NCBI RefSeq assembly: GCF_000003815.2
Contig: NC_049994.1
Coordinates: forward strand, 10,246,538-10,310,537
Direction: 5' to 3'
Length of the DNA: 64,000 nt
DNA from: Branchiostoma floridae
Lineage: Eukaryota; Chordata; Leptocardii; Amphioxiformes; Branchiostomatidae
The notes beneath the pieces were generated by a model, which was not told the origin of the DNA, did no database searches, and was given only the letters and a program-made list of their open reading frames with translations. This document shows, in pieces, positions 2,502-63,595 of the stretch. The number at the start of each line of letters is the position of its first letter. The stretch's first letter is position 1. Made by a program: the position numbers and the translations under genes.

Positions 2502-2576
2502 GTCAAGATCTGGTTCCAAAACCGACGCATCAAGCAGAAGAAACTGGACCGACGGAATAGCGAGATGTGTCCTTAA
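2502..2576 (+). CDS. Posterior-class Hox gene A, last coding exon (C-terminal end of homeodomain)
   Basis: This exon encodes the end of helix 3 of a Hox homeodomain and a short tail of 24 residues: [18 protein letters not shown], then NSEMCP and a TAA stop. Homeodomain transcription factors bind DNA in the nucleus through this helix; W48, F49, Q50, N51 and R53 are all present. The exon follows a strong acceptor (a pyrimidine-rich tract ending TTCCCCATCAG at 2501), so the intron falls between homeodomain codons 44 and 45. That is a known recurrent intron site in homeobox genes, for example in Abd-B and labial. Ile at position 54 differs from the Met of most Hox proteins and matters because residue 54 contacts DNA. 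The upstream exon is not visible in the window. Being 5' of two other posterior Hox genes on the same strand, this should be the most posterior of the three. Class is secure; paralogue number is not. Confidence 0.9.
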   Translation, partial: VKIWFQNRRIKQKKLDRRNSEMCP

Positions 2577-3362
2577 AGACCCCCCACCACTTGTACAAAT
2601 TCTCATCCATAGTACAATCTATTAATTATAAGTCACGTATACCTACATTATATTATTGTTATGTATATGCAAAAAACGCAACTTGAAATGAGAGATATTT
2701 TGACAAAGATGTTTTTTGAAAAATATGATCAACATGTTCTAGTGTGGATGTTAATGCATACTTATATCTTGCCGTCTTGAACGTTTACGGATGTAATGTA
2801 AAGTTACGTACGTTCAATGTTGCTGTTACATTCGCTCCATTTTGTCCATTACTAGATATATAACCAAATCTGAAAAAACCTTATACTATAGCTGTAGTAG
2901 ACGCACATGTGTTTCTATTGTATCGAATGTCACCAGTTTCTTGCACATAGAGAAGATTTAAATCTCTTGTTATGTTATAATATATATTGTTATATTTACT
3001 TTCTTTTCACCTTTTTTTTAATCACAATGCAACACTTTTGGTTCCAACACATATCATTCAATTGATCAGTTGACGCTACAAATTTGAAAGATCCGAGTTT
3101 AACTTACTTCCTCACAGGAAGATTCTATAACGTGTCAAATGTATACCTAGTGCCAAAAATTGGCCTGTCAGACTTTGGATAGCCCGGAAAAAACGGTGTA
3201 TGTACGTAAGTGGGGTTAGAGTTTAGGATAATACAGTTTCAGGATGCGATGTTGTGTAGGGAAGGGTAACTATATGGTGCAATGTGTTTACTGTACACCA
3301 CAATCACTATAGAGGGGAAGTGTGTTCGTACGCTTTTACCATTTGGTCAGTCAAAGGTTTAT

Positions 3363-3368
3363 AATAAA
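3363..3368 (+). terminator. Candidate polyadenylation signal of gene A
   Basis: The first AATAAA downstream of the gene A stop codon, about 790 nt away. In AT-rich DNA such hexamers are common by chance, so this is only a candidate. Confidence 0.2.
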
Positions 3369-5703
3369 CTTCTCAACAGCTTGAAGCTTTCTTGTATTTC
3401 TTTTGGTGAAAGGAGGACAGAACCATTACAAATCCCTATGTAGCTCTCAACTAATCCAAGGATCACCGGAAAAAATCGAACTTCCATCGATTTGTAGCAT
3501 GTATTGGGCTGGTAACGACCTCTCTTGCCCTCCATCCTTGCCCAGCTTTCCTTCTTCAAAGCAGATTCTATATACCTGAAAGCCATTGATCGAACTGTCC
3601 GTACACACGCCACGTGAATGAAATACGGCTGAGTAAAGACGGTGTGATGGTTCGCTCCCTTGATAGTTAACAGTCCTAGTTTTCAAACAGAATAATCCCC
3701 AAAGAATACACAGCGTGCCACCGCCGTGTCCCGAAATGACTGCAATGGCCAGACAGCTTGAAAACAATTCCAGATGACCATGTTTGTCTCTGCGTGAATA
3801 AGGGGCAATGACATTTCAGACATCCAATCAGCTTTTTTCATCAACCTTTTGAAAAGCACGAAAACCTTGAACTCTATGTCGAGTGAGGACGTATCCTTTG
3901 TATCACGAGTCATAAATAGATATATTTGACATTATATAAATGAGCACCGGGGCAATGGGTCAGAAATAAAGACATATTTCTCTCATCATGTTTAATCATC
4001 TCAAAAGCAAAAATTGCCAGTAACATCTTTTGAGGAAAACAAATTCATCATTGGTAATTCATAAGCAACTGTAAGGATTCTACTTTCCATTGACCACCCC
4101 GGTTGAACGTTTACCAACACGTGTGTTGTAAGCTGATATGCTGAGCTAGCGTTACTAAATATGCAGGCGAATCCAATTAGAAAGGACGACAACACCCTTC
4201 CAGTCTAGCGAACATTAAACGCCCGATTTTTTTCCAGTCTTTGCATCCAGGTGAACGGTTATGGTCTGTTTGGCAGGAGATGGATGTTTACAGAGATGGT
4301 TCAGACTTGAGCACATCCTCGGAGATACATGTGGCGCCACCATACCTACCCTAGAGCGCTATACAGGACGCGTATTTAACCATAGGGGTGTGTCCATCTG
4401 GGCGGTCTGATAAAGTCAGCAACGGCAATGTGTATACTAGTATTGTGTACATACACACTAAAAATTTGTTTTTCATTACAAAATTGCTAGCTATAGTTAG
4501 ACTATGTTGATAAAGTCACTGCAATTGATGAAAATATTTCGACAATACGTCCATTAAAATAATTGTCATACGGAGCGACGTTCATCATTGCCCTGAGGGA
4601 GTGGCCGTGGCTTCTAATTTATGAAGTATATTGAAGATTGTTATCACCCTTTTCCTACTTAGTCTTTCAGCCAGTCTTGTGCTAGGACACAAGGTTACTT
4701 CAAGAAGATTGTATCTCATGTTTATTACTTGTAATACTTATTGGGTGAGAAATTGGAGCACTAGCCCCTTTGTGTCGTTTTAGTGTTAACATAACTATTT
4801 GGCAGGAATGTTGTTTAGGGTGTTTCCAAGCATTCCCTGAGTTATGCTCTCCCTCTGGTGTTTATAAACTATAAATATGACGTACCAAATGTTATGGCAA
4901 ATGGGGCGAAGTTGCTGAAAGGCACACATAAAAATTAACCTCATAATTATTTTCCGTTACGGTTGTCATAATAACTATGAATGATGGAAGAGCGAATGTA
5001 GGCATTGACTTTTTGGAAAGTTAGTTGTTTGTTTTATAACTTCGGATGATGGTGTTGTAACATCACAGAGTTAGGCATTGCAGTTTTTCTTCACATAGTA
5101 TTTATGGGATTTGCGGGTATTAATGCACTATATATTGGGTTACCACATGTACAATAGAACAAGTTATGACAAACTCATTTGACAAAAAAACGCGTCTTAT
5201 TACAAATGACACTGTTGCAAAGCCAGGCTAGAACGTATTTCTTACAAACTTTATCTCAAAGCAAGCTGCCATCATTGCAACATAACTTTTGCAAGCAATA
5301 CTACTCTTTTAAGTTAGATGTTAGATCATGTGTATATGCAATTCGTGCATATACTCTAGTTATGTACGTAGTAAACTTATCTTCAAAGTCATATGTTAAG
5401 TACAACTCTTCCACGCTGAATTGACTGCGATATTTGTCTATCTAGCCATATGAATTAAAACCTCAAAGGTGTATGGTGTACAGAATACAGGTAAATAGCT
5501 ATACATTTGTGTTTTTTTTCTTCTATTCTGGATGCTAAATTTGAGACATATCCACTCAAAGTTGTTCAATATTCTCTTGCCATCAGTACCTCTAAAGTTG
5601 TACACACACACTCTATAGAAGCAAATTAAGTTTTATCCTGACTCACAACTAACGATAGGAACTTCAAAACTGTTTTGATGCACAGTATGTGTAACAACAT
5701 GGC

Positions 5704-5737
5704 TGACCTATGGCGAAGAGATGACCTCTGACCTTGA
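5704..5737 (-). promoter_or_regulatory. Nuclear-receptor half-site cluster with a perfect DR1
   Basis: Three exact TGACCT half-sites lie within 31 bp. The second and third (5722-5727 and 5729-5734) are separated by one base, so the - strand reads AGGTCA-G-AGGTCA, a perfect DR1. DR1 is bound by HNF4, COUP-TF and RXR-type receptors. The last half-site extends to TGACCTTGA, which on the - strand is TCAAGGTCA, the extended monomer site of ERR and NR5A receptors. Function is inferred from motif only. Confidence 0.35.
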
Positions 5738-8700
5738 AAATTATTCATGGCGGCTGAAATCCCCGAAGACCCCGGGATGTCAATCAAATGGCAGAAAATG
5801 CTCTACAATCGTTCTTTTTGTATAGGCTTTTTTCAATGTATGCACACACACAAAAAAACAACACACACATTCACCACTTCTTATATCACACATGGTAGAA
5901 GTACCTATGCAAGCTTATGTTTACAATCGTCTTGACTGGCCTAGAAGTGATATGTTTCTGTCTAACGTCTGCCTTCATGAAATACTTCGGTTGCATTTAT
6001 AGAAATGGTGAAAAATAAAGTTTGTCACCAAAGTTTGAGTAGGGTGAAAGGATTGAAAAATAAAACGAAAAACCGAATGGGTCACTGTTGCAAAATAGGG
6101 ACACTTGAAACGGGACCGAAACAACACAACAATAATACTTTTTGAACCAGATGATATTGTCTTTCAATTAAACATATATATGTTGAAATGATATCTCTTA
6201 CGGTAGAAGTACTTCTTCTAACAGCTTGGAAGTTTGTGTTCACTTTTATTAAGGAATACTTGTCTCAAAGACTCCCTCGATCAACATTTTAAGAAAAGGA
6301 CCTGGACTCACTATTCAACAAAACACTCCCATTTCGCTCATGACCAAACAGATTCCGCAGTTCATCTCATACGGCTCCGGCTAAACTTCAACCAGTTAAA
6401 CCACTGTTTATTTCAACACCATGCATTATACTGATTATCCTACAAGTACATGCGGATATCGTTGTGAAACAAATGAACACTATATTCCAGACGTTAAACT
6501 TTACACCAGCCAAAGTCAAAAAGAAGTAATTTGTTATCATCTCTCCACAGCAGACCTACAACGACTAAATTACAGTACATTATGTTCCTTACACTTTTAC
6601 ATTTACAAAACTGTAACATCTTTGATATAGACCATACTTTCATTTGTTTTACATGTAGATTCTCATCATTGATACAGCACCAACTTGTCTTGTTTACGTG
6701 TACTTTTCTGTTATCCATATTTTGTATTTATGTATAAATGTATGTATGCTAGAATTGTGTTTTGCTCTTGTTTTGTATTTCTGTTTCGAGTAGAATGCGA
6801 TGTGATTTTACCTAATACTCACAACATAAATGTTGATAGAATCTAGACCTATACTGCATGGATGATACACGCACATTTTACTCGAGTGAAGATGTCAAAA
6901 TAAGCTAACCAAAAATCGGGTGTTGGAAAGAAAACGAATAACGTTTCACTCTTTGTTGCTTATTCCTGATTTAGCTGACAGTGTTAGTAGATACTGACTT
7001 GGATCCAGTCTGTTGTCAATTAAAATTTCTGTTACTCTTTGACATTTTGTCTCTACAACTTTATCCAACTTGTATGCGCTCTAGCCCGTTTTTGTTGTTA
7101 GTATTTTTGTTATTCTTATGTTGCGTAATGACTTAGTTTATGTTCATGTCATCTTAAGTTATACGTTTCGTTATAATCTCAATTTTGTTACTTTTGATTG
7201 TCATTGTATGTCATATACAGAGCAGAAGACCTCCATAAACTCATTGTGAGCTTCTTGTCCCATGCTCAAAAAATGAATGCGAATAAAATAAAAAATAAAA
7301 TAAAAATAACTTTATCCAAGCATCTCTTTCGTTTCAAGTTAGTTCAATTCTTTTGTAACTATTCTTGGCATGCCTTTTCTTTAGGCTGCTAAGAATATTT
7401 AAAAAATGCGGCTTCAAATATACAAAAGCCGGCAAAACGCGTACAACTGAAGCATACGATGTTAACTTTTAAACCTATACATAGGGACTATTTCCGAAGT
7501 AGTTCATTTTTTTAAATATGTCGAAAAACATACAGTAGAATTCAGTCAGTTACTTTATCCAATGCTGTAAGATAGAGTACATGAAGAAATGGATTGCAAT
7601 TTACAAGAAATGACAACAGCTGGTAATCGAAACGTTAAAGAAATCTGTTGCCAAAGAAAGGAACTCTAAAAGACAAAATCAAATAGTTCCCTTACAACTT
7701 ATACATAGGAAATGCTAGCGCTCTGAAGTAGGGAAAAACTAGAAAAAGGAGCATCATTCATATCTGTTTTCTGCTTTTCATACTTTCAATGGTGCAGCGC
7801 AGAAAAGCAGCAGCTTGAATGAATGGCATGTTAGTCTCATGATGCCAAAATGTTTAAAGCTACAACTTTTGTTCCTTGCGTGGTTTGTTGTTTACTTTCT
7901 TGCTACCTTCTCTATTCTTTATCTTCGCGTTTCTCTCTAAAATAGTGACTTAGAGTCAGAAGTATGTTGTAACATGGACCGGAAAACTTCTCTTGATTTC
8001 TCCATAGATTTCAGTTTGTAGTTTGGATTATTTCTGAGATTTCAAATGGTTGATGCCTCGCATAGCTTTTATGTCTATGTGAGCATATACGAAATTTAGG
8101 TTAAGGTTCCGTATAGTTGATCAGAGAAATAGTACAAAGCTGAAGTTTTCTAGTTTGCTTAGACGAAAGTCGGCTAATACACAATGTTTAAAAAAAGAAA
8201 TGCTCGTTTGTAAAATTAAAGAATGAAGCGTCAGCATTGCAGTGAAAACACCTACGTGCTGTACGTTTGACAGAGTTCGAGTTTAAATATCTATGTGATG
8301 GTTGCTTGATAGTATAGCTTTATTTCTTCCGAAACAGGCTGTCGGTTTAGTTGTGGTGAATTTGAACTGCTGTTACCAGAGTTTTAACATTAGTCCCATT
8401 TGATCAGACCTACACAAAGCAAATCGCTGTATTGCAAACGGTTTGCTATGCAACATCTACCATTTTTTGCACAAATTGTAACTCTATAGAGTTCCACACA
8501 GTAACCATAATGCAATATCTGTCTATATTTCTAGCATTTGAAGAGAAGAGGGTAAATAGTTTTACTTTCAAGTTGTAGATGTGTATATTTGTTCCTGTTC
8601 TTTCTGATATTTGCCGTTGCTTGATGATTCCGTGTATGTGCTTTTGAACGAAATACTTTATACCAAACGTTGTTTCTAGCTTAACTCGTGGCGAAATAGT

Positions 8701-10649
8701 TACATTTGATATGAACCTCTGTTGTAGTAGGCTGTTTTGTTGTAGGCTCGTTCTCTTTAAGTAAGACCCCTAAAGCAGTTGGGAGTTTGGAACATATGCC
8801 CACTTTGTATATCCGAACACAACATGTCTGCTACTATTTTAACTTCTTCTAAAACAACAACTGATATTTTGCACAGAAAATAGCCATTTTAACGCTATAC
8901 GATACAAATACTACTATTCAATCAGCTGATATTATGAACTTTTGGGGGGCCAGTGAGGTACACATGGAAAGCAGTTTGAAACACGAAAAGTTGAATATGA
9001 AGTCGTCACAACTAATGGTACGTGCATACTGATTCATATTCAACCTCTCTGTAGAGATACAACCAACAAAGCAGATCGACAAAAGTATCAAAATTTCAGT
9101 TAAACAGAATGCCTTATGCTGAATTAATCAAACTCTCAAACAAACGTGATAAAACCAAGAAAGAGTACACACGTTTGGATAAAAATGCAGTCAGAAACAA
9201 CGTATCAATAGTTTTTTTCTGTTATTTCATTCTCGTCCACTGTCACCTATAATAGCACATGGCTACGTTGAACAGCTTTCACTCACGCAAAGTTGTGAGA
9301 AAAACACCATGACGCAAACATTTTCAAGTGGTTTTCACTCAAAGCTGTGGCATTTTGCACATTAGTACAATGAAAAACAGTCCCAATTTCAGACATGTTC
9401 ACTCACCTCAGTAACAAGAACTTTTATGGCCGGCGTGTCGCATTGGCAAAGAGGGAAACGAGCTGAAATAATGTGCCAGCTGGCGTACATTTTACCCCAA
9501 AACCTATCATTTTCACCAAAATCTACATACTTGTTGACAATTATTTCCACACACACAGTTCCCAAGAGGATGTCACTATAACCTGCCGTTGAATTTTGAT
9601 CAGAAAACGGGAGCTGGGCTTAGATTTCGTTAAGCGATTAAATCTTTGAATGCGACCTTCGCTCATAAAATGTGTCCGGGAACACAAGAACGCCCACTAA
9701 AAGTTCAAGTGCAAAAATTTAAATGCGCTAGAAATGAAGTGGCCGTCATGCTGCGCAGTTGACTGGTAGATATCGTCCCGACAGGGACTGTTTTCGAGAG
9801 TCGCAGTAACTTTGTTCAACAACAGAGGGACACTCCATACAGAATATTGACAGAAAAACTCGTCATCGACATCTTCGAAAGGTAAGACTTTGAGACCAAT
9901 ATTCAAACTGTAAAATTCACACTCTGAAACTGTATCCGTCACTGTGATACATTATGATATTTCTGCTGTTAACGGTAGATGTGGCGTATAAGACGGATAT
10001 GTACATTGATGAGATCTACTGTCACTTTAACACTTGACTCTACCACAGATATGACTGTAATGGCGTCGGTGTCACTCATTGGCGTTGCAGAAACTTGGCG
10101 ATCCTTTCTCTGAGTACTCCAAGAACTGTATACAGTTGCAAGTTGTTGAAAAGACGAACATTTATGTTACGATAAGGGTGTATTGTTTGATCTCTTGCTT
10201 GCACTTGTCATGGAATAGAAATAAAATTTGTATTATGATATCAGCCGATACGTCACAGATTTCATATGCGGCCATCTTGGTGCATCAGAAAATGCAATCA
10301 GCGCATGAATGACGTTTGAATGCATTTTGAACCGATAGCGTTGTCATAGTTGTGATGAATATAATTGATATAATCCCTGTGTTGTGAAGATGGTATTTTT
10401 ACATTCTATAGTTTCATGGTTTAAAGAATCTGAATCAAAAAGGGTGATTATACTTTTGCAATACACAGAGTGCTTCTGACAAGGGTGCGCAGGGGTCAGT
10501 CAAGTAAGGTATCAAAAGCGTCCCGTGCATTTTCTCTCTAGAAGTGATGTTATTAGGAATATAAGCATTGGATTAACATATTTAGAGAGAGTTTGCAAAA
10601 CAGTTTACTTCTAGATTTGTTATTACTTCATTGAGAATGAGAGAAACCA

Positions 10650-13600
10650 TCCACAATACTCTAACGTCAGCCAGATAGGTGCACCAAGTAATTGTAAAGT
10701 ATTGTCAAAACATGTTTTTCATTACTCCAAACAAAATCCCAGCAGAACTTTTGATGTCACTAACTATCTACATAGTTCACATTTGCTTTACATCTATTAA
10801 AATCCGTTTCCTGGTTACAAAAAATGCACACTCTTCTGGAAATGATAGAATACAGATATACATGTATTTCACGTAAAACAGGCATTGATGTCATATGCAT
10901 GAAACAACGTTATAACAGTATAAAGTTTGAATTGTTACAAAACATAACTTCAACAAAATTAAAGACAACACCATTCTAAGTGAATCTGTGTGAATACTTG
11001 AATCCACAAAGAATGCCTCAGATGGTTCCTATGGCCTATAGTAGAAATACGAATTTTTATTCAAAATTCTTCTTCCTTATTTACATAATAAGGAAGAGTA
11101 CATTTGTGATATAATATAGGACCCGCATTGCCCAGATCCCACAATACATAAAGCGGTACGTTGATAATATGCCCTCTAGATCTGTGTCAACAATAGAAAG
11201 ATATGTTGACAGCACACAGGGCAAATTTTTGTACTTAAAAGATCCATTTGATTTTAACGTTTTGCCATAGTACTCTTCGTAACTTGACATGATCAACATG
11301 GTTATTTGGTGTTCCAATCTATAACTCTCAATAGGAACATTCGAACAGAGAGCCCCTTCTGTGCAATACTGCACCTGTTTGCATATTATTACACCTTTTT
11401 CAAAAAGGAAGGGAATTCATACGCAGGATTAGACATACATGTACATGTAAAACATTACTTCTCTGGCTCTACGCATTCGGGACCATACTTGAAAACATTA
11501 TGTATTATACTAGTACATGTCCCACCAAGGGATACACTTTGTACGACTCGGATGAGTTCATAACTCATTATGGTCCATGAAACACACTGGCACCTTTGTT
11601 GCAAAAGAAGAAGTTATAATATTAAATATCATTGATCATGACTTCTTGGCCCCATTAGTCGTGACCTCCATTCATCAAGATTCTGAAGTTTAATAACTCG
11701 CTTGAGCTGAAGTCTTCCTCCATGGGTCAAGACATCAGAATGGCTGTAAAAGAATCGATAGGAGACAAAAGAGGTATCAGTTGGTCATTTGTATGGCGTA
11801 GAAACCTTATAGAAATGTCTGAATACATCTTACTATGGGCAGGTGAATGCTGTGACGATACACCGGTCTACGTCATGTTATAAAGATGTTCCTGGCGTCT
11901 TTTGGGTCATGATTCTCCAAGTTAAAAGGATGGCTGGACTCGGTCTAAGTCGCGTACCTTACCCACAATAATGTACCATACATCTTCTGTAATGTTTTGC
12001 TGACGATTTATTAGAAATTCATGATGCTACCTTATTAAAGATATTAATCTTGATATCTCTAATTTTGCCTCTCATTTCAACTCACTTATACTATACGCAT
12101 TATATGTGTCCTATGCGCTGTTTCAAATATGGTGGCAAGGGGGGCTTATGATTAGGCTAGATCGTTTTCTTACATGTCAAATATTAAGGTTCTGAGTTCG
12201 AATCCCTAGAATACGGCAATGTTATGCTCTTGGGAAAGGCACCTATCTTCTCATTCGATTCAGATGAAAATGAGTAACCAGATTAGTCCTGTCAGATGGG
12301 GCGTATAGCCTATAGAACCGTGTTAGAGGGGAGCCACGCACTGAACATGTTAAAGATACCACTTATCAAAACGAGTTGGGGTCCATCTCGCTATGAGTGA
12401 ATCAAATCCCAAACACTCCGGTCTAAGACAGCTTAAAAATAAACTTGTACGAAAATTGTGTCTTACGCCTAGAAGCACCATGCTTATCATGCGAGAAAAT
12501 AAAGACAAATAAACACATGCAAAAAACAACATTTAAGATGATAATTCTTAGCAAGAACGTTAAAGAACCATCAAGTTTGTCTTATAGCTAAGCGGCAGTG
12601 TCTATATTACGTAGATTCCTGTTTTTTTATCTAAATACAATTGTCACATGTTTCCTCTTTTCATATATTACTTAAAAATGTCATACGCATGCGGTATAGC
12701 TCTTACACATTTATACATGGTATTCTGGGAAAAGGCAAATGGCAGTTGAGGTCAATGTAACTGTGACATGTCAAAGTGCTTGGCGGACATACATTGCTTG
12801 GCGTGCATACATTGTTAACCATGTTACTACAATCGTTTTAAAAAATAGGGATATTTTACAAAGATGTAAGGAAAGAATGTATCTACCCGTCGTCATCGAT
12901 AGTTTTCATCTTTATTCTTTTTATTCATCTATTTGTATCATACACAGGGTACCTATCCAAGAAACACTGATGCAGAGTTCGAAATATATAGAACACTTTA
13001 GAAATACACCAACAAATTTCCTCTCCATACCCTCTTAACTATATACAGGTAAATACTACAGGATAAAAACTAAATTGTCGTACTGCCACCAGAAAGTTCT
13101 TTAGCAGTATATATCATGAACGGTTCGGAATCAAGAAGCAATTGATGATAGTATTGTTGGAAGACAGACGGCAAAATACAAGGTACGTAGCTGAGTTTGG
13201 ACGATCAATAGTGTCAAGACCACTGGTGGCAAAAAGATAACTGGTAATAGGCATTACATATTACATGGACACTTACGAGTATTTAGAATTTTGAAGGTAT
13301 GTTAAATGTTAGTATGGTAAGAAAAACGATCGACAGTATAGTTTTTAGTTTTCCTAGTAACTTGAATCTCAAATCCATTGCCTTGTCCTTTGCACAAACA
13401 AAATTAGCTGATTCATTTTCCGCAGAGTTTCTAGATTTATTTTGCACATAATGTCTAACTGTCCCGGACGCTTGTTCCATGTGCAAACTGCCGTTGAAGC
13501 TCTCCAAAGAGGATAGGAAGTACTAAAGAAGAAGGGAAGTTGAAAATATTATCTGTCTGACACAGATAACCACTCGCTTTTGTCTGAAAAATATGTTGTG

Positions 13601-18105: not shown

Positions 18106-18798
18106 NNNNNNNNNNNNNNNNNNNNNNNNNNNNNNNNNNNNNNNNNNNNNNNNNNNNNNNNNNNNNNNNNNNNNNNNNNNNNNNNNNNNNNNNNNNNNNN
18201 NNNNNNNNNNNNNNNNNNNNNNNNNNNNNNNNNNNNNNNNNNNNNNNNNNNNNNNNNNNNNNNNNNNNNNNNNNNNNNNNNNNNNNNNNNNNNNNNNNNN
18301 NNNNNNNNNNNNNNNNNNNNNNNNNNNNNNNNNNNNNNNNNNNNNNNNNNNNNNNNNNNNNNNNNNNNNNNNNNNNNNNNNNNNNNNNNNNNNNNNNNNN
18401 NNNNNNNNNNNNNNNNNNNNNNNNNNNNNNNNNNNNNNNNNNNNNNNNNNNNNNNNNNNNNNNNNNNNNNNNNNNNNNNNNNNNNNNNNNNNNNNNNNNN
18501 NNNNNNNNNNNNNNNNNNNNNNNNNNNNNNNNNNNNNNNNNNNNNNNNNNNNNNNNNNNNNNNNNNNNNNNNNNNNNNNNNNNNNNNNNNNNNNNNNNNN
18601 NNNNNNNNNNNNNNNNNNNNNNNNNNNNNNNNNNNNNNNNNNNNNNNNNNNNNNNNNNNNNNNNNNNNNNNNNNNNNNNNNNNNNNNNNNNNNNNNNNNN
18701 NNNNNNNNNNNNNNNNNNNNNNNNNNNNNNNNNNNNNNNNNNNNNNNNNNNNNNNNNNNNNNNNNNNNNNNNNNNNNNNNNNNNNNNNNNNNNNNNNN
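18106..18798. other. Assembly gap (693 N)
   Basis: A run of N inside unit 2. By comparison with unit 1, the missing sequence should correspond to roughly 12370-12730. That suggests the gap size is somewhat overestimated, or that something extra was inserted there. Confidence 0.95.
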
Positions 18799-31689: not shown

Positions 31690-33400
31690 GTCATTTGTGT
31701 TCAGTATTTGATATCCAAACGTTTTAGGCTCAGAACAAGTGACCTCCAAAAGACATAGAAAATGATCAGGGGAAATACCAATTGCAACAAATTCGAATTA
31801 TTGTCAATTAAGAAACGGAAGATTAGGAAAACCACGTGGATACGTTTTTGTAGAAATATTATTCAAATCCCATGCTCTCTTCAATTATTCTATCTATCTT
31901 AAGGCCGTATTTTGGTTTTCAGTCAGGTGGCCACAAACCTCCGAACTTGGGGACTGGTCGACATACACTTGCGTGAAAGAGCTATAAAAGCTGAACAAGC
32001 CATTGTTGTTGTTGTTTTTTGCTGATATTTCAACATCTTTGGTGTGTGTTTTCGCACAGTTCTTGTAACAAAAGACTGTAGACCTTCAATCATTAGCATA
32101 TATACCGTTGTTGACAACGATTACAATGTAGTGCAGTAAAACCAACCAGACCACAAAAGGTGTCAAATGTTACCAGTTAAATCTTATTCTTTTAACACCA
32201 GTGGCTACATATGCGTTGTTCATTTCGGAGTGCAGTCCGTACTCGCTATACAGTTCAATACCCAGCTCGGACTAACTGTCCGAGCATGGAAACTGTAGTA
32301 GTTTCAGAGTGATTCCGCATATTATTTTCAAGATTGCAGCTTCAATGTAAGTATTTCTACAACGTTGTAAACCAGCAGTGTAGAGAGTAGTCTTTTCCCA
32401 TCCTGAAGCTGTACAGTTGCTGTTTTGATACTAACCATAACTAGACGTTTCGTTAAAGTTGCATACAGATCTATACATTACTTCGTGAATGGGCGTGCTG
32501 TCTGTATCTCCTTGTTATTGCCATCTTAAACACTTCCGTTATATTGAAGCTTTCATAAAGGATTTGATAGTGAGAATAGCTGTATTCAATCCCATGTGAT
32601 ATGATTCTAAAGCTTTGCACAATTGTTTTGAAGTTGCTACATTGCGGCGACTAAATGTCGGGGTTTATACGTATATCCGAAACGTTCTAGGAAACGTTGT
32701 AGGAATAGTAAAAATCAAAGCTCTGTAAGATAAAACGGGCCTAAAATTTTCAATTGTACTATCGACATAAACAACAGCTGTTAGTACGATCGACATATTG
32801 CACAGTGAAACTAGTGAATTACGCAAAATGATGGTTTCATGTTCGAATACTACATCCATTCTTCCACTCAGTTTTAGAATAAACCAATCAAACACGAAAC
32901 ATCGTCTTGACAGGTTGTCCAACAGCAATTGAAGTTGCTTTATCAAGGGTAATAACATTTGCAAGTTGCCTTTAAACATGTCACAAACGTAACATATTCA
33001 TATTCAACTGTATTTCATGTTATATTCTATTATAGTCCTTATTTAGTGTACCTCCAGACATTACACTTAAGGCGTTTTTCATAGTGGGTAAATTTGCACT
33101 AAGGGCATTGCGATACAACGCCACATTCACACTTGTAGTTAGTTCAGTGCGTTGAAAGCATTTTACGATATAGATATTCAAGTATATGCCAGAAAAGAAA
33201 AAAGAGTTTTTCCAACCTAAAGCCATGACTGCTGATATCAAACTAAATATGATATTTTGTTTAAAGATGGAAATAAAAGATACAGGGAATATTTTCCGAT
33301 GTAGAGATGACGAGCTATATGTTTGGGACGTTTTGGCTTGATGCCACATATTTTATGATTGTATTAAACATATGGGTCTGGAACTTTTCAATTGTCTTGT
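31690..33400 (+). repeat. Array unit 5 (partial)
   Basis: Carries the first module of units 3 and 4 only: TTTCGGAGTGCAGTCCGTAC at 32223, GCGGCGACTAAATGTCGGGG at 32644 and TGGGACGTTTTGGCTTGATG at 33323. It then loses similarity, which marks the right end of the array. Confidence 0.6.
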
Positions 33401-35629: not shown

Positions 35630-38600
35630 AAAAGTTACTTGCCTTATACATCGCAAACATTTGTCAACTAAATGGAAAAATTACATACATACATGCCTGT
35701 AATTCGCGTAAGAAAAAGTGATATGTGCAATCTGAACATCAATCACAAATGTCTTTTCAGGTGCTAGACATATCGAGGCATTCAAACATTCAGCCACAAA
35801 CGTATGATGAAATCTAGTTTTATATCCTCCAACTGCATAATATTCTTGATGAAATATATACGAATAGCCAGCAAAAATGGCTGTATGTATACAAATATGG
35901 ATATAAATCTAAAACTTACTGATAACTTTACCTTGATGCTGAAGCTCACTAGAAGGCTTTCTCTGAAACTCTCTTTGAGCAAGCCAAAAACACTTCAACG
36001 TGAAATGTTTTCCTCCAACTCATACTCTCTAGGGCTCTATATCTAAGCAGAGTTTGTTTCTTCTTGTATTCTCTTGGTATGGGTTGTTATGTTTACCAGT
36101 AAGAACAGCATATATTCTGAACACTATTGTATGTAGTCAACATCTTTTGATTTAAATCATGTTAAATCTGCGGGCACACGTAAATCCTCGTAACACGCAC
36201 CGAGAAGCTTTCAACAGCTCCTTCTGATGTAGAGTCACGTTCAGTGATGCTTTGGGACAAACAAAAGTAATAATCAGCGTCGTCTTGGCGAATACTGATG
36301 GCGACCCGGCAAGCCACGGCATAAATTGTCATCTGTGTTTTGGACGCCGCTGCTTCGATCCACAGTACCCTGGACCAGACATATCATTCATGATTCAAAC
36401 ATTGCTGTTTTTTCTTTCATTCCATAGTTTGTCATTTACTACTACATGTCTGTACAACATGTGCAAATTTTTGTAAGTTTGTGCATCGCAGTCGCAGGAT
36501 AAAAATCTCTGCCTTCTTGAGACTCGTTGACAATATTGACTACATATGCATCGATGCAGAGATGTTAGCTGGTTTCCTACTATTATAATTATTGACTGTA
36601 ACTGTTCCCTTTTCAGTAGAAAATGGGAATCAGATTGTATGAAAGTGTATTCTAAGAAAATGTTACACGAACATGTTCTTGGAAACATTTCAACTCTAGA
36701 ATCTGGGGACAATCTGCGCTTATATTTCTTGCATAGAGTTGAATATGATATCGGTACTCCACACTGAAAATACACACAGACAGATAAAAATCATGTAACA
36801 CACGAAGACACACTTTCTGCCTTTTAACTATACAAGAGGTTTACAGCTCTAAAAAAGGGTGGGTTACTTATATCCATGTAGAATTACACAGAAATGCGTG
36901 CAATAAATTTCCCTGGCTACACCTATTCACGAAATGTCAGCAGAAGCCTATCTTCTGTGGCTGCCCATTGATGTGAAAATTGCCCAAATAAGTCTTCAGG
37001 CTCTTTAACCACAGGTTAATGGTTTCAAGGCTCCCAGGTTCGCTCTTTTCCGGAGGAGGAGATCCCAAACCTGTTCCTAACGCAGTCTCTACATCATACT
37101 TAATCTTTATTTTGCTCCTTCGCTGACCTGGAAGAAATTGGATGTGTCAAGAGGTCATGTTGCGGCGCCAGGATGTCCAGATATGTTTTTACTGTTAACA
37201 CCTTCAGAAGTAAATACACTTCTTTGATAACTCGGTGATATGGCGATATTTCTTTCCTGTGCGTCAGTTAAATGCTAAGTTTTTTTTACGTCAGCTTTTG
37301 TGACCAAAACATATCATGCCATTGTACCAACAAGGTTGATGATGTTCTTCGTTTAAGAAATATGCTCGCAGTCCGCATCGTGTTTTTGAATTCTGAAACA
37401 ACAAGTTGACTGTCTTTCTTCATGTCCTGCCTCTTTTCTTCATGTGCAGACAACAAAATATCTTTGGCAAAGAGTTCAGCTTTGAATATTGCGTTTAGCT
37501 AAGTATTGGAGTATCTATTTCATGTTTTTCCATGTGTAACTTTGCCCTGTTATAGTAGATCCAAGAAGTAAAAGATGAGTAGAAGTTCGCACCAAACAGG
37601 GAAAAGCAGTAGCGGTCTATGTTTGGTTCATCCTGAAAGCCAGAAAATATCTACCGGCATATAACCTCGAAAATGTACCGCACAGAAGTTCCTACTACAA
37701 ACACTTGCTTGTTTCGGGAGTACACTAATTTTCGCTCAAATTCCAGTGCAACATAATTGGTACATATGTGATAATTCCGATCTCTATCTTTGCCTGTCTG
37801 TCTGGTAGTGTTCTCTTTTTCTTTCAAACGTATTTCATACAGAGTATCCCCATGGCATGTTTTGTTTTGGATGCTATACGCTACGGGTGAACATCAACTT
37901 CGTTTTGTGGACCTCTATAAGATAGAGTGAATCAAGCACACATGTTATAACTGAAATACGTACTGTACTTGTATATGTACTTCTCTGTTAACTAAAACGG
38001 CTCTATCTCTCCCAGATTGATGAACATTGCATGCGTTTAGTGAACGTCTATAAGACCGGGTGTGCGAACTACACATTTCAGAACTAAAATACGTGCTTCC
38101 CGGCTGTATGGTTTTCAGTTTGAACATACGTACAAAACATATGTTTTAGTTGGCATATTTAACAGAGTGTGTGTCAAACACAGATTTCAAATCTGAAATA
38201 CATACATCCATGTCAACGAAAATAGTTCCCTCGCTGCCATATTGTGTGTCACGTCTTTTCTAATGATATAGTTAGCTCCTGTAGAAACCAGAATTCGTAT
38301 GTATACGTTACCTAATGGACATATTTAAAAGTATAGGTCAGTTAACAGCATATGTAACATTTGTTACTTGTAAGAACAATACCTACTCTCATACATACAT
38401 GTCGTTACAAAACAACCTAGTACCTATTTCTAAAAGGCCCATTTCTAGGTGGACAAAAAAAAGATATTTATTCTTGCGATTCAAGAATTGTACTACTACT
38501 TTCCTCAATTTATTCGATACTCTCATTGATTCATATCACATTTCTCTGTCTTAAGCCTTACAGACTAACTACTTTTTCTAGTTTTCAACTTTTAGTGCGT

Positions 38601-49440: not shown

Positions 49441-49448
49441 TGCTGCGC

Positions 49449-50170
49449 TGTATGTGAATATGAATTGTGAATATCTCTGTGTCTCCGTATCTTTCTTCCA
49501 AGATACATTCATAATAATAACTTTGCTAGAAACAGACGTTCATAGAATACGAAAATTAGTAAATACATAGCAAACACATAATCCACGTCCTACGTATCAC
49601 AGAAAAAAATGATTATATGCATGTATTTACCGTATGTGAATATGACTTGTGAATATCTCTATGTCTCCGCATATTTCTTCCAAGATACATTCATCATAAT
49701 AACTTTGCTAGAAACAGACGTTTTTAGAATACAAAAATCAGTAAATGCATAGTCATACGAATACCAAAATTAGACAAAAACATAGCCAGACGTCCTACAT
49801 ATCACAGAAACAAGATTACATACATGTATCAAGTTGTTGTGTTTGCCGTATGTGAATATGAATTGTGAATATTATTATGCTTCAGTCTCTTTTTTTCCTA
49901 GATACATTCTCAATAAATCCTTTGCTAGAAACACACGTTTTTAGAATACAAAATTCGGAAGATTTGCAACCAGATACACCACAAATAGCCAAGCGTATCA
50001 CAAAAACAAGATTACATACATGTATCAAGTTGTTGTGTTCCCGTTGTGTGAATAAAAGATGTGAATATTTGTATCTTTTCGTCTCTGTCTTCCTGCATAC
50101 CTTTTAGATAAACCCTTTGTTAGAAACATACGTTTTTAGAATACGAAAATCATTATATGCATAGCTACAT
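49449..50170 (+). repeat. Four-copy tandem repeat, unit about 180-215 bp
   Basis: Four direct, diverging copies start at about 49451, 49633, 49849 and 50042. Each begins with a TGTGAATATGAATTGTGAAT-type block, followed by an AGATACATTC-type block, then TTTGCTAGAAACAGACGTTT and AGAATACAAAA. Copies 2 and 3 share the longest common tail (CAAGATTACATACATGTATC, then AAGTTGTTGTGTT). Copy 4 is the most diverged and partial. Confidence 0.85.
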
Positions 50171-50179
50171 ACACAACAC

Positions 50180-52490: not shown

Positions 52491-52495
52491 ACCGT

Positions 52496-52916: not shown

Positions 52917-53499
52917 ATGGCAGACATGCGGAATTGCCTTCAGTCACAAAGCAAGCCGTCCGACGCGCATAAGGGAGTCGCCCCTCGACCGAATACACCG
53001 ACGTTTGCGCGGCAAACAGCGAGAGTAGTAAATTTGGGGGCGATGGAGTCCTACACAGGATATCACTCCCAGTTTCTGGGGCCGGGGCCGGCCCCGTACG
53101 ACTCACGCCAGGCCATGGGGCAGACGTTGAACCAGTGCCCGTGCCAGGGCTGCTCGCTACGATGGCAGCAAACAACACAACCGGCAGGACCGCACAACAA
53201 CGCCCTCTGTCCACCCTACTCGTCCTACGACCACAGCCTGCTCAAGCCGACCTGGAACAACCAGGCGAAGGACTTCGGCCCTATTTTCTCAGGGAGCAAC
53301 TTTTCTCAGAACTTTGGTGGACAGAACTATCCTGTACATGACGGACTCAACAAGACAAGCGGCGTGAGAGAGAACTGTACGGTGGGGAGTTTAGACCCGT
53401 CTTCCTCCCTACCCCCGTGCAGGTATTCCATGGCAGGGCCGTCCCAGAATTTGGGACTCCCTCCTTCAAAAAACGTCCCGGACGGACCCGTAGTCGCAG
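52917..53499 (+). CDS. Posterior-class Hox gene B, exon 1
   Basis: Encodes residues 1-194 of a 270-residue homeodomain transcription factor. ATG at 52917 is the first Met, has G at -3 and +4, and follows an in-frame TGA at 52905, so the start is firm. The region is low-complexity and rich in Pro, Ser, Gln, Asn and Gly, as expected of the regulatory N-terminus of posterior Hox proteins. It contains a compact cysteine group (CPCQGC at residues 74-79) and several aromatic patches (YSSYDH; FGPIFSGSNFSQNFGGQNY). A second Met at 43 begins MESYTGYHSQF and could be an alternative start. The donor is CGCAG then GTGGGT, phase 1. The exon is much more GC-rich than its surroundings. No Trp motif for PBX binding precedes the homeodomain. 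Confidence 0.85.
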
Positions 53500-53879: not shown

Positions 53880-53910
53880 CATATACATATTCGGCGGGAA
53901 TATGTATATG
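53880..53910. repeat. 13-bp perfect inverted repeat around an E2F-like core
   Basis: CATATACATATTC and GAATATGTATATG flank GGCGG. The centre reads TTCGGCGGGAA, containing GGCGGGAA, an E2F-type site. AT-rich symmetric arms around a GC core are unusual here. Confidence 0.65.
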
Positions 53911-55505: not shown

Positions 55506-55735
55506 CCGCTGACCAATCAGTTGCACGTGGTGGGAGGAAAAAGCGCTGTCCGTACACCAAGTACCAACTCTCGGTCCTGGAGCAAGAGTACATCCAGAAC
55601 AGATACGTCAGCAGAGAGACACGTCTTGAACTGTCCCAGAGACTCAACCTGACCGACAGACAGGTCAAGATCTGGTTCCAGAACCGGAGAATGAAGCAAA
55701 AACGTCTGGAGTTTCGCTCTAGAAACCAGACCTAA
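55506..55735 (+). CDS. Posterior-class Hox gene B, exon 2 (complete homeodomain)
   Basis: Encodes residues 195-270. The homeodomain spans residues 204-263, starting [12 protein letters not shown] and ending with [21 protein letters not shown]48, F49, Q50, N51, R53 and the basic N-terminal arm are intact, so it should bind DNA in the nucleus as a Hox factor. The [10 protein letters not shown] arm and the [15 protein letters not shown] segment mark it as posterior class (groups 9-15). Helices 1-2 ([20 protein letters not shown]) diverge from vertebrate Hox9-13. The tail is only seven residues (FRSRNQT) before TAA. Acceptor and phase match exon 1. Unlike genes A and C, this homeobox has no intron. 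Orthology to a vertebrate group should not be assumed. Confidence 0.95.
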
Positions 55736-58700
55736 TACAGACTCGTTCTATAACCCCATCTCTCTTTTTTTAGAATGTTTGTATTTCTCATATCAGACCC
55801 GACAGAAACGCAACATACGACATCCTTAAGTTGTCGTCTCTTTCTTAGAACTTCTATTTCTGCTCCGTGCCATAGCGTCTTCATGGAAAAAGATACAATG
55901 TATTTTTTCTTAGGGTAACAGGGTTTTCTATATACTACACTCATATACAACATAGAATAGTTCGGAAACTTAAAGCTGATAAAGAATCGATCATCACTCA
56001 ATGATACCATGTGTCATTGAAAAGCTTATTCATTTTATTCACAGAGATGCAAAATTAGTCAAAACACTACATTCAAAGGTCTAACATCAGGACTGAGTAC
56101 GTGCGTCTGTCAGAAAAGTTAAGTGCCGAAATTCACCTGCCAATAGTGTCCGACATTGGGAAGGAGATTTTGACACTCTTCTGGCAATCATCAAAAAGGA
56201 AAAAACATCATTTTGATGACGCAATACACAATGCTAAACATTATAAAACGAACACATGACCAATTGAAAATTCGGCATTTTTTTCTTGCTATAACTACAC
56301 AATCATAACAAACCAGGGATGTATCGTACAATATCAATGCGTGTATGAAAGCAGGGATACTGTTGATCAGATTTAAGTTTCCGAACTTTTTATGTTGTGT
56401 GTAGTTTCTCTACACTAATGCATTTGTGTATCTAAGGCATTTCTGCCAGTAAATAGTTCAAAATGCTAAAAGGAAATATTTTCCTTATCTGTTTTGGCTA
56501 CATACAGGGCGTAAAAAGTACGTTTCGCCTACTAGTAGGTAGTCTTGAAATTATGTTGGTTATTGGAGCCAAGAAGAAGAAAAATGGACCTTATTCAGTA
56601 GTGTAGCAAAGATTGGTTTATTGGGACATTACAGACAAAATCTGAATGGATATAAATATCTATCTATATGCACAAATTATCATACACATAGTCAAGTCTA
56701 TTTAAGATTGTTCAACTTGAGATTATTCATAAAGCGTTATACAGATGTACTTATGGAAGGGTTATATATTCGCATGACAATCTCAAGTTCATTTTTTCAC
56801 TTTGACTCAAGTTGAGTGTTCGGTAGGGTGTTACAGTGTTTACGAATTTGTATGTGTTCTAAGAATGCTGAAATGTATAATCGCGGTGGAAACGTGCACG
56901 TGGTAAGACGGTAGTGTATTCTTTACACTTCACAAGTCGAGTGGTGTACTAAATCTAATCGTAGAATTACGGGTGATAATAACTAATGTTAAATGTGTGG
57001 TTAAATGAGAAAGTAGGGTATCTAACAAATGTATGGGTAAAGTGAAGCATGTGGTGTTTGTGGCTAGATATTGTCGGAGAACAGGATTTTATATTATGAT
57101 ACCTAAACGGTCTATGTTGCTATGCTTGCACAACCAATACCTCATTTCTATCGCCAGGGTCCTCATTCAGAATCTATGGAGAAAGTTTATATTATCCAGT
57201 GCTCCACTCAGAAATGTACTCTGTACTTTAAAACAGGTGTATTGTGTGGTGTATTTAGAGAAGCACTTGTACGATTGCACATTTATAATGTCTACGGTGA
57301 GAGATTTGCAACGGGCAGGGATATTCTTGAACTGTGACTTGAATACATGATTCGTCTCTACTTTCTTGTTTTTGCCTTTTTATCACAAGTTGTCCGATTT
57401 GGTTTCTCTTAGAAAACGTGCGTGTTAATGCGTAGCCGATAGCTCACGAAAAGTACAGGAGTTCTTCTGTCCAACTACTGACGTGTAACTACAAACGTTT
57501 TCCCCATGTCTATGAAAGAAGGAAATATTTTCTACTGCCAATGCCAAATTGTGCAGTTGGCAACGAAGAAGGAATAACATTTCATATCACACCACAAATA
57601 AGCTACATAGTTCAATTTTAGGACATACAAACTTTATATATTCCCGTTACAAAACAAAACACCACTACATCGACCGAAGAAGAATGATAATACACATTAC
57701 AAGAAAGGTGAAAATAACAACCAACACAGCTGCCTGTAATATGAACTTAAAGCTCTCTATGTTTGTTGTCTTTTTCACGCTACACAGTCAGTTATTCGTA
57801 TGCACAGGTGCTCCAAACCTATAGAAGTAGGTTTTCAGAATAGAAAAGTATGTTTAAATCTCGAAAACAACACATCTTGATTTCTTTTTAAAGACTCCCA
57901 GATAGATATGGTAAAATAACCAAGACTGGAAGAATGAATTTCAGACTATGGCTTTAATTTGGAAGAAACGGACGCATTTTTCTCGTCGAACAATTAAACA
58001 ACACATCCAGTTTACTTTGCGCTTCAACCGTTCCATTGGTACCACAAGGATGAAGGCACTAGACGAAAGGATAGAAACTCTATATGTTTATATAAGGACA
58101 AAATTTGTTAACGACACATGAACAAATTCCACTTGGGCATGGACGATTTGTAGAAACGTTTTCACCTCCTATAACGTGTACTTTTATTCAGGAATGTAGT
58201 TTTACAATCTAGCTGTACAAGCTGGCATTTTATCAAAGTTAGAACTACACATATGCTATTCAGAACAATTCTTACAAAAAGACCTGCTGCTGTTTGGATC
58301 TAGCTGAAAATGCCAACAGTATGTGGCGTGTGTTTTTTGTACTACTCGCAATCAAATTATGTACATACACAAGTTTCTCCTTCCACTTAACTTATGTGCT
58401 CAACTTTCTTATTTCATTCTAGATTCGGAAAATGTGTAATCATTTTACGTCGAACCACATGTCCTACTAAATCTCAAGTATAAAACTATGGGCCTGTATC
58501 TGATTTCTTGCATTTCGTTTCCGTGATTTAGATACATATTTCGGCCACTATGTATTGGCTTCGTGAACGAAAAATACTGTGACAACTGTGTGGAGTGTTG
58601 ACAAATACAAATTCCCAAACAGGCACTTCTACCCTTTCTCGCTGTGTATGTTTAACTAGATTATCAAATGACGAGGTGGAATTTAGATTTCACTTGGAAG

Positions 58701-61102
58701 AAACTTCTTGACATACTGATAAACTATTAGCACTGATACAGAAATATCGTACTCAAGCGGGTATTCCATGGTTGTTTATCGAATCTACTGAAAGGATGTC
58801 GGCTCAGCTTGGTCAGTTTCTCTTCAGTTTGGGCCTTCTCTTTAAACTATCGACAGAAGATTATCAGGGAAAACTTCTGAAATCCGAACCTAGTTTTTGA
58901 TCCCATCTAGAATGGGTACGTTGCATTATTGTAGCTTCATTCGTTTAACAAATCTTGTATAAAACATCATGTGCAGCCTCGCCCAGTGCTTAGGTGGGTT
59001 TCGCCCAGTATGTTTTCTGTCACGTAGAATGTGATTTCCTTGCCTTTAGGGTACCAGAGAATTATTGAGAACAGCTGCAATTTTACAGCAACGTTGATAT
59101 ACAAATACTTCCAACAAGGCAACCTTTTCTGCTGGGAGGTATGTGAGCTAAATAACTCCAAATTTGGCCAAACACTCTACCCAACAAAATTACACTGCGA
59201 TATCTTATTCCGTCATACCTATTCCTAAACGAGTAACCAGCAGCTTTTTGACGAAATAGTGTTGTATCATCCAAGTTGAACACCGCCTCTTACGACAAAC
59301 AACGTTTGAAAGTACAGGATCAAAATTAGGAATGTTTTATAATATGACATACTTTAAATCGCAAGTTAGAAATATCAGAAAACGTAAAAAATTCTATGTA
59401 TTTGCTCTCTTGTGTGTATTCTTTTTCCAGCACTTCTGAATAAATGCAGAAATTGCATCGAGTGATTCATCTTCAGTGTTAAGATGTTTAAATTTTACGT
59501 TGTACATGGCTAGCTTATATACGCGTATTTCGTTGTATGAAAAAATTATATTAGCCGCGTTTGCATGTATCAATCTCTGTCAAATTGACGCAAGGATACC
59601 GTGATACTGCTGAATCATTTAGGACATTTTAGTCACGATATACTTCCTGAATGTATCTAATATGTATCCGTCCACCCAAACATACATAGTCAAGCATGTA
59701 TTAGGTCTGTTTTCAACTGTCTCGTTTCAGTTGAAAACGTCTAATTTAACGATAAAAAAACAAGTGTTCTTCTATGCCGGTTTAACATTACGTATGGAAA
59801 CAAACTCGAGCTAGTATTGTAATTATTATTGCGGCAATGCTGACTTTTTGACAAAGTACAGGACATTTTCATCTTAAATAATGTATATCATAATCGCCTT
59901 TGACCACGGAGTCGATCAATTTTTCGTTCTATTTTCATCGCCAATCACCCAGGAATAGCAGATTATGGACAATCCGATTTTTTGCCGTGGATTTTCGGTA
60001 ATCTATTATTGATTCTTTCACATAGTTTCTCTGATACTACATACTGCCAACGGTTGTTCACAACAACATATTACATGTAGACCTAAAAGCAACCGTTACA
60101 AACTAGTATAAACCTGTATATATCTCTGTGAAATGTATTCAAATAAAAAAAAAAAACTTCAAATGTTCTATATGTAGCCATAATGTCACAAATTTATTTC
60201 GAACAAAAGAAGCTATATGGCCTTTTAAGTGAAGCAGCTATAGCTAGACCGTTTGGATACATTGTCTAGCGCTGTATCTATTTTTCGTTCCTTTTCGTGA
60301 TTTATCAAAAATAGAATACCTCCATTTCGGCATATCCAGTCAAATGTTACCACCACAAATGTCCACAGTGAGATGTATGTGCAATACGTATACTTGAAAT
60401 GTTTCCAGCCTGAACGTAGCCTGCATGTAGCTTCAATCTGGCTCAGATTTAAAGTTGTACGCGTTCACTATCTAATTTAAAAAAAAATCCTAGATCAATA
60501 CACTTATATCAGTGAAAAATGACCGTTTGTCTCTTCTTTTTTCTTACTTTCCTACTTTGCTTTCCTAATTATCCTCTATAAACGTATGGCACATAACAAG
60601 ATCACACAATCTCTCTCTCTTTCTCTCTAACTTATTCTGTTCTGCTGTAATAGGTACGTATAAACTTATATCCATATAAAAATTTGTATTCGTTGAAGGC
60701 AAGTTTCACAGTCTTATCATTCGTTAAAAGATGAAGAAAAAAAAACATGACAAACACAAAACTAGAAAACTACACATGACGAACATAGCAACCGCAATGG
60801 TGTCTGTTGGACCTCCCTTTTTTGTCACCATCCCTAAACAGCTAAACACATGTGTAGACGCCTTCTCTTGTTTTTTATTAATGCGTGTGAAACTATTCTC
60901 CAAGAGAGGGAGCTGTGCTTGAAGTTTTGCTATAAACGAAGTAAAGCTTGTCAGTGGTGTGCCATGTTCCTTCGAGGTTAAACCTGAGTTGTAGTACCTT
61001 GCCGGATCTAAATGTATATCATCTTGTTAAATTTTTCAACAGTTAGTTTTCTTTTCTTGATCGAACAAACATTCACACTATAAATAGTGCTAATCTACTG
61101 CT
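55736..61102. other. Intergenic DNA between genes B and C
   Basis: No exon or RNA gene supported. The 3' UTR of gene B should be near its left end, but no AATAAA was found close to the stop. A CT-rich microsatellite lies at 60611-60628. Overlapping open frames at 57033-57350 are not convincing. Confidence 0.5.
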
Positions 61103-61202
61103 NNNNNNNNNNNNNNNNNNNNNNNNNNNNNNNNNNNNNNNNNNNNNNNNNNNNNNNNNNNNNNNNNNNNNNNNNNNNNNNNNNNNNNNNNNNNNNNNNN
61201 NN
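61103..61202. other. Assembly gap (100 N)
   Basis: Exactly 100 N, the conventional length for a gap of unknown size. The distance between genes B and C is therefore uncertain. Confidence 0.95.
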
Positions 61203-61800
61203 GCCTAAATTTTCGTATCAGTAATTAGCGTAACACATTGAAAATATTCATAATCAATACAAATCCATTCACATAAAATACATCATCTAAAGAATCAAAT
61301 AATCCGTCAAAAATGAAAAGAAGATAGTGGGTTAATCCTATGATGTATTTACTAATGTTTACAGGAGGCAGAAAGTTTGGTATGCGACGTTATCCAGGCT
61401 TGTACTATAAAGTTCGCGAGAAAAGTTTGGCAACAACTTTTGGGTCATCCGGAGGTCAGAGCCTGCGTAGTGTTATATAGCTGCGGGAAGCTCTACGCAT
61501 CTAAAGCTGACAGTGAAGGAGTATGATTGGTTTGTGTGTATGAAGTTAGCTCAAGTTCTCCAGCGATAATGAAGTTGTAGTGCGCCTAAGACGCGCTGGA
61601 ATTAGATATGAAGGATGGGCTGTCACGGGTGGGTAAGAGGGCACGTTGCGAGGGCGTTGGATGGTGTTATGTGGACAATTGTATGATACTCGCAAGATCC
61701 TAGCTTGCAGTAGTGTTCGCTTTTTGTTTGTCCATCCGTGAATGTATGAAACCGAATTTGATAAATTCCAGTGACGTTATCAGGAAAACAATCTATTTCC

Positions 61801-61810
61801 CCTATATAGG
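61801..61810. promoter_or_regulatory. Perfect CArG box upstream of gene C
   Basis: CCTATATAGG matches the SRF/MADS consensus CC(A/T)6GG exactly and sits in the 12-bp palindrome CCCTATATAGGG. It is 358 bp upstream of the gene C start codon and could alternatively act as a TATA element. A homopolymer of 14 C lies at 61983-61996, between it and the gene. Confidence 0.35.
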
Positions 61811-62167
61811 GAAAAACAAAAACCGCACTTCTATCTATTCACATTCAGATTCTGCCAAACGCCCGTCCATTGATAATTCGTCGCAACGTCAGAAGTATTT
61901 CTACTCATCCGATAATCTTGTCGTTAAAGCCATAGAAGTCGTAAAGCTCAGAGCCAGCGTTGGATTCAAATTTCTCTCATCACCCCCCCCCCCCCCTTCC
62001 ATACCCGGAAATGTAATAACGACCGAGCAACCTTTAACCTCTGAACGGAGAGCTCCTCCGGCAATTGCCTCAGAGGAGTCTTTACTTGCGCCAAACAGTC
62101 CCAAAAGTCTCCCAGCAGGACGTCTTAAAGTTTAAGTACAAGACTGAGGATCACTTTCTCCAACGAG

Positions 62168-62447
62168 ATGTCTTACATACATTACAATGGGACTGCCGGC
62201 TTTTCCTCGTTTTGCACCGCTCACCGTATGCTCCCTTCACCAACATGGTTGTACGGACAGAGGTATCTCTACCACGGGTTTCAAGACTCGGGGCACGGCG
62301 CCAACTTGGAGAATGAGAAACGTTTTCAGGTTGGGCTGTGTCCTACCGGCATCGAGAGGTCAGCCAGTGAAGACAGTGGCTGTTCTAGGGACTCCAAGAA
62401 GGGAGACACTGCAAACTGCAGTGGAGACCCCGATGCCGATCCAAATG
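62168..62447 (+). CDS. Posterior-class Hox gene C, exon 1
   Basis: Encodes residues 1-93 plus one base of codon 94. ATG at 62168 is the first Met after an in-frame stop at 62126 and has G at -3. The N-terminus (MSYIHYNGTAGFSSF) is aromatic and Ser-rich, like the N-termini of many Hox proteins. A later acidic, Ser-rich stretch (SASEDSGCSRDSKKGD) precedes the donor AATG then GTACAT, phase 1. The join to 63456 keeps the frame (DPN-G-TDVWW). The exon is shorter than that of gene B. Sequence just upstream (61979-62135) is also GC-richer and may be 5' UTR. Confidence 0.8.
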
Positions 62448-63455
62448 GTACATTCACGCACATTCGTAAATATCTAACTCTTAGCTATCGCTATGCACAA
62501 ACCTAACACTTTACCTGCAGTTCTTAACTTGATAAATACATATAAGATTCCCATGTCATAGATATTGTTTTTGTTTATTCCTTATGCACACATTTCAATA
62601 AATTAATAAGAAATATAAATCTGTTAGATATGTCTTCAGGGTAAAAACTGGCCGCTAACTTGTGATGCAAATATAAAGTCTTCTTTTGGGTCTATCGAAA
62701 TCAAAATATCAAGATATTTTCAGCAACAACTGTTATCAATAAATACAGATGCTTTTTCTTTTTTCTTTACACCGTAAATCGAAAGATTCATCTATCTAAG
62801 AAGTGGAAATGACAAGCAACGAAATATTATGGACGTCATTCACGAATCTCGTGGACACCATATGTATCTGAAGAATGGGACCGTGAAAATGTGTTTGGAT
62901 GTTCAACTCTTTTTATCAGATCGTTCACAATTTTATCAGGTTGTTGCATGCTGTGAAAATGAGCTGGCCGTAAAAATAGTGAGGATACAAAATATGTTCT
63001 CCATTATAATTTCCGATGATGAACAAAACGGCATAGTAACACCTACTCTGATCTTTTCTTGGTTAAATGTCTCTTTGTAACCATTCCTCCCTACAGATAG
63101 ACCGTATGTAGCAGTTTGTTTACAAGCAGTCTACAACTACGATCATCTTTGTAGACTCTGTGTTCATGTATACGTAAAAAAAGAAGAGAGGGCATTATTA
63201 TTCAATTACTTCGTCGTATTTCTTAACTCACTTAAGTCCCCTTCAAATACCTTTTAGAAGATTAAGCAACAAAACATTCAAATCGTCTTCCCAAAAATGT
63301 GTAATAACATAAAGAGTATGGGATCTTGCTTTCCACATGGGCTACGCCAAAGTGTAGTATTTATAAACAATGCAGTTTTTACTACATTAGCTTCGCACGT
63401 AATTTCTCTTGATAAATGCTGTGTAATAATGTAATATTTTGGTGATTCTTGCTAG
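62448..63455 (+). other. First intron of Hox gene C (1,008 bp)
   Basis: AT-rich, from GTACAT to TTCTTGCTAG. It lies ten codons before the homeodomain in phase 1, the same place as the gene B intron, so the two are likely the same ancestral Hox intron. No other feature was seen in it. Confidence 0.75.
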
Positions 63456-63595
63456 GTACGGATGTGTGGTGGAAGCTTCAGAGCTCCAGGAAGAAACGCT
63501 GTCCGTACTCCAAAGTCCAGCTCCTGGAGTTAGAGAAGGAATTTCTCTATAACATGTACATCACCAGGGAACAGAGGGGAGAGATAGCGCGCAAG
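63456..63595 (+). CDS. Posterior-class Hox gene C, exon 2 (homeodomain residues 1-37)
   Basis: Encodes residues 94-140. TDVWWKLQS precedes the homeodomain; the first Trp is six residues before homeodomain position 1, exactly where the PBX-contacting Trp sits in Hox9 and Hox10 proteins. The homeodomain begins [20 protein letters not shown], then [17 protein letters not shown], very like groups 9-11. After K37 the frame turns into unrelated hydrophobic sequence, while AAG then GTCATA offers a (weak) donor. The recognition helix must therefore be on a third exon beyond 64000. The intron would fall after codon 37, not at the 44/45 site of gene A. Without that exon the protein could not bind DNA normally. 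Confidence 0.85.

Follow-up and report, generated by a model that had tools for sequence, protein, structure and literature searches.

Homeobox introns at two different positions in the Hox14-Hox13-Hox12 region of the amphioxus Branchiostoma floridae

Two of three neighboring posterior Hox genes in a stretch of the Branchiostoma floridae genome have homeoboxes that break at different codons, with an undivided homeobox between them, raising the question of whether the breaks are introns and, if so, whether they share an origin. The stretch analyzed in this study, hereafter the window, is 64,000 nucleotides long and corresponds to C16:10246538-10310537 of a 513 Mb assembly; fetched flanks were identical base for base to both window ends across the overlaps. 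A preliminary description had placed three homeobox pieces in the window, belonging to genes designated A, B, and C, and all three were recovered at their coordinates by a six-frame homeodomain profile scan (the profile consisting of ten homeodomains) and by Pfam. In the profile scan, gene B contained a complete homeodomain (101.3 bits, 55535-55708, profile positions 2-59), gene C the 5' part of one (57.3 bits, 63488-63604, profile positions 2-40, a match that overruns position 63595 by three codons), and gene A the 3' part (35.1 bits, 2484-2546, profile positions 39-59, a match that begins six codons ahead of position 2502). Among 20 first-order Markov resamples the top score was 10.5 bits, and the reversed window reached 5.7 bits. 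The Pfam Homeodomain matches covered profile positions 1-57 in gene B (4.5e-23), 1-36 in gene C (6.1e-8), and 44-57 in gene A (1.6e-4); the gene A match scored 21.9 bits, just below the 22.9-bit cut-off, which is unsurprising since only 14 positions were matched. The next best profile match, a candidate fourth homeobox piece at approximately 36469-36531, scored 12.3 bits, slightly exceeding the best Markov resample, and was rejected as a chance match, since the surrounding sequence lacks the conserved residues of a homeobox. Scans of the window found neither of the missing homeobox halves of genes A and C inside it; both were found outside. Within the window, Rfam at gathering thresholds returned no matches and ARAGORN no genes. 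The window includes three assembly gaps, at 1828-2000 (173 N), 18106-18798 (693 N), and 61103-61202 (100 N), none of which touches a split site.

The window represents the Hox14-Hox13-Hox12 portion of the single amphioxus Hox cluster. A genome homeobox search placed matches, all on the plus strand, at C16:10164257 (Hox15), 10246243 (Hox14), 10302072 (Hox13), 10310025 (Hox12), 10325607 (Hox11), and 10357986 (Hox10), with the series continuing beyond in the expected order, so that genes A, B, and C form part of one collinear, same-strand series. Hox numbers were given by cluster order, anchored with published Hox11 primers. The B. floridae Hox11 exon 2 primer (PMC3534614) has an exact match in the assembly and the B. 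lanceolatum Hox11 exon 1 primer a match with one mismatch, the pair spanning 2,487 bp where the reported product is approximately 2.5 kb long (PMC3534614). The B. floridae cluster is assigned to BFL16 in PMC11175523 and lies here on C16, and its uniform orientation is consistent with the account of amphioxus Hox genes in PMC3707753 and PMC3534614, where all cluster genes share one orientation. The posterior type of the homeodomains is evident from the Pfam matches, from the best PDB matches of genes B and C (Hox-C9 and Hox-A9), and from the reconstructed homeodomains described below.

Gene A is Hox14. Its last coding exon (2502..2576, plus strand) encodes homeodomain codons 45-60 followed by eight more codons and a stop, while homeodomain codons 1-44 are encoded by exon 2, located outside the window at C16:10246205-10246371 (plus strand), 166 bases upstream. 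This numbering takes the V preceding RPKRRPYSK as residue 1, hence the end of exon 2 as codon 44. The intervening intron lies at 44/45 in phase 0 (CAG/gtaaac...catcag/GTC); its 3' part occupies window positions 1..2501 on the plus strand, and its assembled length is 2,667 bp, although the true length is uncertain because the 173-N gap at 1828-2000 falls inside it. Splice sites were scored with position matrices and ranked among all AG and GT sites that the window contains. The Hox14 acceptor, which the preliminary description had called strong, has the top score among 3,381 AG sites (top 0.03%), and the donor ranks in the top 1.6% of GT sites. The B. lanceolatum Hox14 3' UTR is reported to have a 45 bp intron (PMC3534614); in the present sequence, many GT-AG candidates of 40-50 bp occur within 1 kb after the Hox14 stop, none of them distinguishable from the others. 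A DR1-type element, TGACCTCTGACCT, is found at window positions 5722-5734, approximately 3.1 kb beyond the Hox14 stop on its 3' side, and is the sole exact match to the DR1 pattern in the window; DR1 elements have been reported in the Hox14 locus (PMC3534614).

Gene B is Hox13 and has two coding exons, both on the plus strand. Exon 1 (52917..53499, with an alternative ATG at 53043) is open in frame through the splice into exon 2 and has a donor in the top 0.03% of window GT sites. Exon 2 (55506..55735) contains the complete homeobox (homeodomain 55532-55711) and the stop, in agreement with the earlier claim of an intact homeobox in this gene. No Pfam family was detected in exon 1 of either Hox13 or Hox12.

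Gene C is Hox12. Exon 1 (62168..62447, plus strand) is open in frame through both splices, and exon 2 (63456..63595, plus strand) encodes a W-containing linker followed by homeodomain codons 1-37 (PDB match to Hox-C9, 4.9e-15). The homeobox stops at codon 37 before a GT, as had been proposed, and codons 38-60 and the stop resume in frame in exon 3, which starts outside the window at C16:10311596 (plus strand, window-equivalent position 65059). The intron between them lies at 37/38 in phase 0, is 1,463 bp long, and has GT-AG ends (AAG/gtcata...tatccacag/GTAAAC); its first 405 bp occupy window positions 63596..64000 on the plus strand and the rest lies beyond the window. The donor at 63596 is weak, with 19% of the 3,855 window GT sites scoring equal or better, and the 37/38 position therefore rests more on where homeobox similarity ends and restarts. 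The weak donor, together with a frame that stays open beyond it as far as 63709 and so makes a read-through product conceivable, could be taken as a sign that the homeobox of gene C was truncated or wrongly assembled, with no intron interrupting it. This is, however, extremely improbable given that the remainder of the homeodomain follows in frame 1,463 bp downstream, preceded by an acceptor that ranks among the top 1.3% of window AG sites, that the 6,001 bases of C16:10308500-10314500 around the split contain no N, and that the Hox12 coding sequence of B. lanceolatum has been obtained by RT-PCR (PMC3534614).

When joined, the halves of both Hox14 and Hox12 give ordinary posterior homeodomains. 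Splicing of the two homeobox introns in vivo is predicted from the genomic sequence. Because the missing half of each gene exists, correctly ordered and oriented and in frame with its partner, with no N at the splits, a homeobox read-through past 63595, an assembly break at 63590-63600, and a stray duplicated fragment at 2502, all raised earlier as possible sources of error, are not supported. The exons for codons 1-44 of gene A and 38-60 of gene C, which the preliminary description had proposed to locate from transcripts, have thus been located in genomic sequence.

Among the other Hox genes of the same assembly, Hox11 has a homeobox intron at 44/45 in phase 0 (3,106 bp; acceptor in the top 3.4% and donor in the top 0.08% when ranked against window AG and GT sites), while the homeoboxes of Hox15, Hox10, and Hox9 are unsplit. 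According to a 2013 review (PMC3707753), amphioxus Hox11, Hox12, and Hox14 carry homeobox introns; that of Hox11 and Hox14 occupies the site found in dipteran Abdominal-B, vertebrate Hox14, and lamprey Hox13 beta, and that of Hox12 occupies a different site, not common to those genes, and was secondarily acquired. The equivalence of the Hox14 intron observed here (44/45, phase 0) with the Abdominal-B position is taken from this review. The pattern in the assembly is the same as that given for amphioxus Hox12, Hox13, and Hox14 in PMC3707753 and PMC3534614, where Hox13 is absent from the genes named as split, and no difference was found. The observed splits and the review together thus indicate that an old intron is kept in Hox14 and Hox11 and that a separate one is present in Hox12. 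Accordingly, the most probable explanation of this Hox14-Hox13-Hox12 region, at a probability of roughly 0.96, is that Hox14 would have kept the old homeobox intron at 44/45 common to Hox11, Hox13 has no homeobox intron, and Hox12 would have separately acquired a GT-AG intron at 37/38. The independence of the homeobox introns in these posterior Hox neighbors, which had been suggested from the window, is therefore upheld by the completed genes and the review; the novelty of the arrangement does not hold, since the differing, secondarily acquired intron of Hox12 was already reported in PMC3707753, as were the split homeoboxes of Hox14 and Hox12 in general. The present analysis contributes the precise codon and phase at which each homeobox intron lies, together with its length as assembled. 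A published codon number for the Hox12 intron did not turn up in the literature consulted but may well exist, and a literature query with homeodomain residue letters returned no paper.

The origin of the Hox12 intron can be considered further from its surroundings. An AG/GT context is a proposed site of intron gain, and the joined Hox12 exons provide one (AAG/GTAAAC). Parsimony, rather than observation, suggests that Hox12 lost the old 44/45 intron and gained the one at 37/38. It is quite unlikely that the Hox12 intron is instead the ancestral 44/45 intron, slid or converted exactly seven codons upstream without a separate gain, although the introns at 37/38 and 44/45 are both in phase 0, and Hox12 lacks a 44/45 intron while Hox11 has one and, of six homeodomains compared with that of Hox12, is also the nearest (identical at 49 of 60 residues, followed by Hox9 and Hox10 with 47 each). 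A distance of 21 nt is long for an intron slide, and a slide of the Hox12 intron, if true, would be a rare long-distance event within a homeobox. Comparison of intron sequences gave only chance-level similarity between Hox12 and Hox11 (E 0.56) and between Hox12 and Hox14 (E 0.48), a comparison with no power to separate gain from slide because the presumably homologous introns of Hox11 and Hox14 are also similar only at chance level (E 0.29). A separate gain is the most economical reading of how the Hox12 intron arose, and this is also the reading of PMC3707753, which regards the intron as a secondary gain and so speaks against a slide.

As to how such a gain may have occurred, introns can originate from mobile elements or introners. 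It is very unlikely, however, that the Hox12 intron derives from a mobile element or introner family still recognizable in the genome, as the sole assembly match to the 1,463 bp intron at E values up to 0.001 was the intron itself (the search passes over simple repeats and very frequent words, and a common repeat may thus have escaped it), and the best exon-like stretch within it was 15 nt long (E 0.085).

Relationships among the homeodomains were also compared. The Hox13 homeodomain is equally near to those of Hox14 and Hox10 (42 of 60 residues each). In a FastTree analysis of 11 homeodomains, Hox13 grouped with Hox14 (0.72), and the order of Hox10-12 was unsettled (support 0.26).

Across the genome, at least 58 of the 135 Homeodomain matches listed have profile ends at positions 44-48, and at least two end at 37 (Hox12 and a gene at C1:15507921), where 150 of 246 candidates were scored and match ends serve as a proxy for intron sites that may overrun by one residue or more. 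A split near 37 therefore looks rare, but not unique, in this genome. The second case (C1:15507921-15508031, minus strand, locus L036) is a homeobox that is apparently not Hox-like, in which the match ends after residue 38 at a gtatgt donor and the 3' half, SETQVKTWFQNRRTK, is found approximately 330 bp downstream, making another split near 37-39. The positions of homeobox introns in posterior Hox genes have been treated as markers of chordate gene multiplication (PMC3707753), and in this part of the cluster one old marker (44/45) and one lineage-specific marker (37/38) stand close together.

The sequence between the Hox genes of the window includes repeats, and repeat islands have been described between amphioxus posterior Hox genes (PMC11175523). 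A large tandem array extends from 11207 to 32805, between Hox14 and Hox13, with units of 4.1-5.7 kb each; unit starts inferred from self-BLAST lie near 11207, 16886, 22267, and 26353, with a partial unit at 31700. Aligned blocks longer than 800 bp are 64-81% identical, and some short blocks are more similar. When a 1,156 bp segment taken from the third unit was searched against the assembly, with very common words skipped, four matches were returned, all within the array, and units 1 and 2 were not reported. A small direct-repeat array is located at 49447-50164 and consists of four copies spaced approximately 182-217 bp apart.
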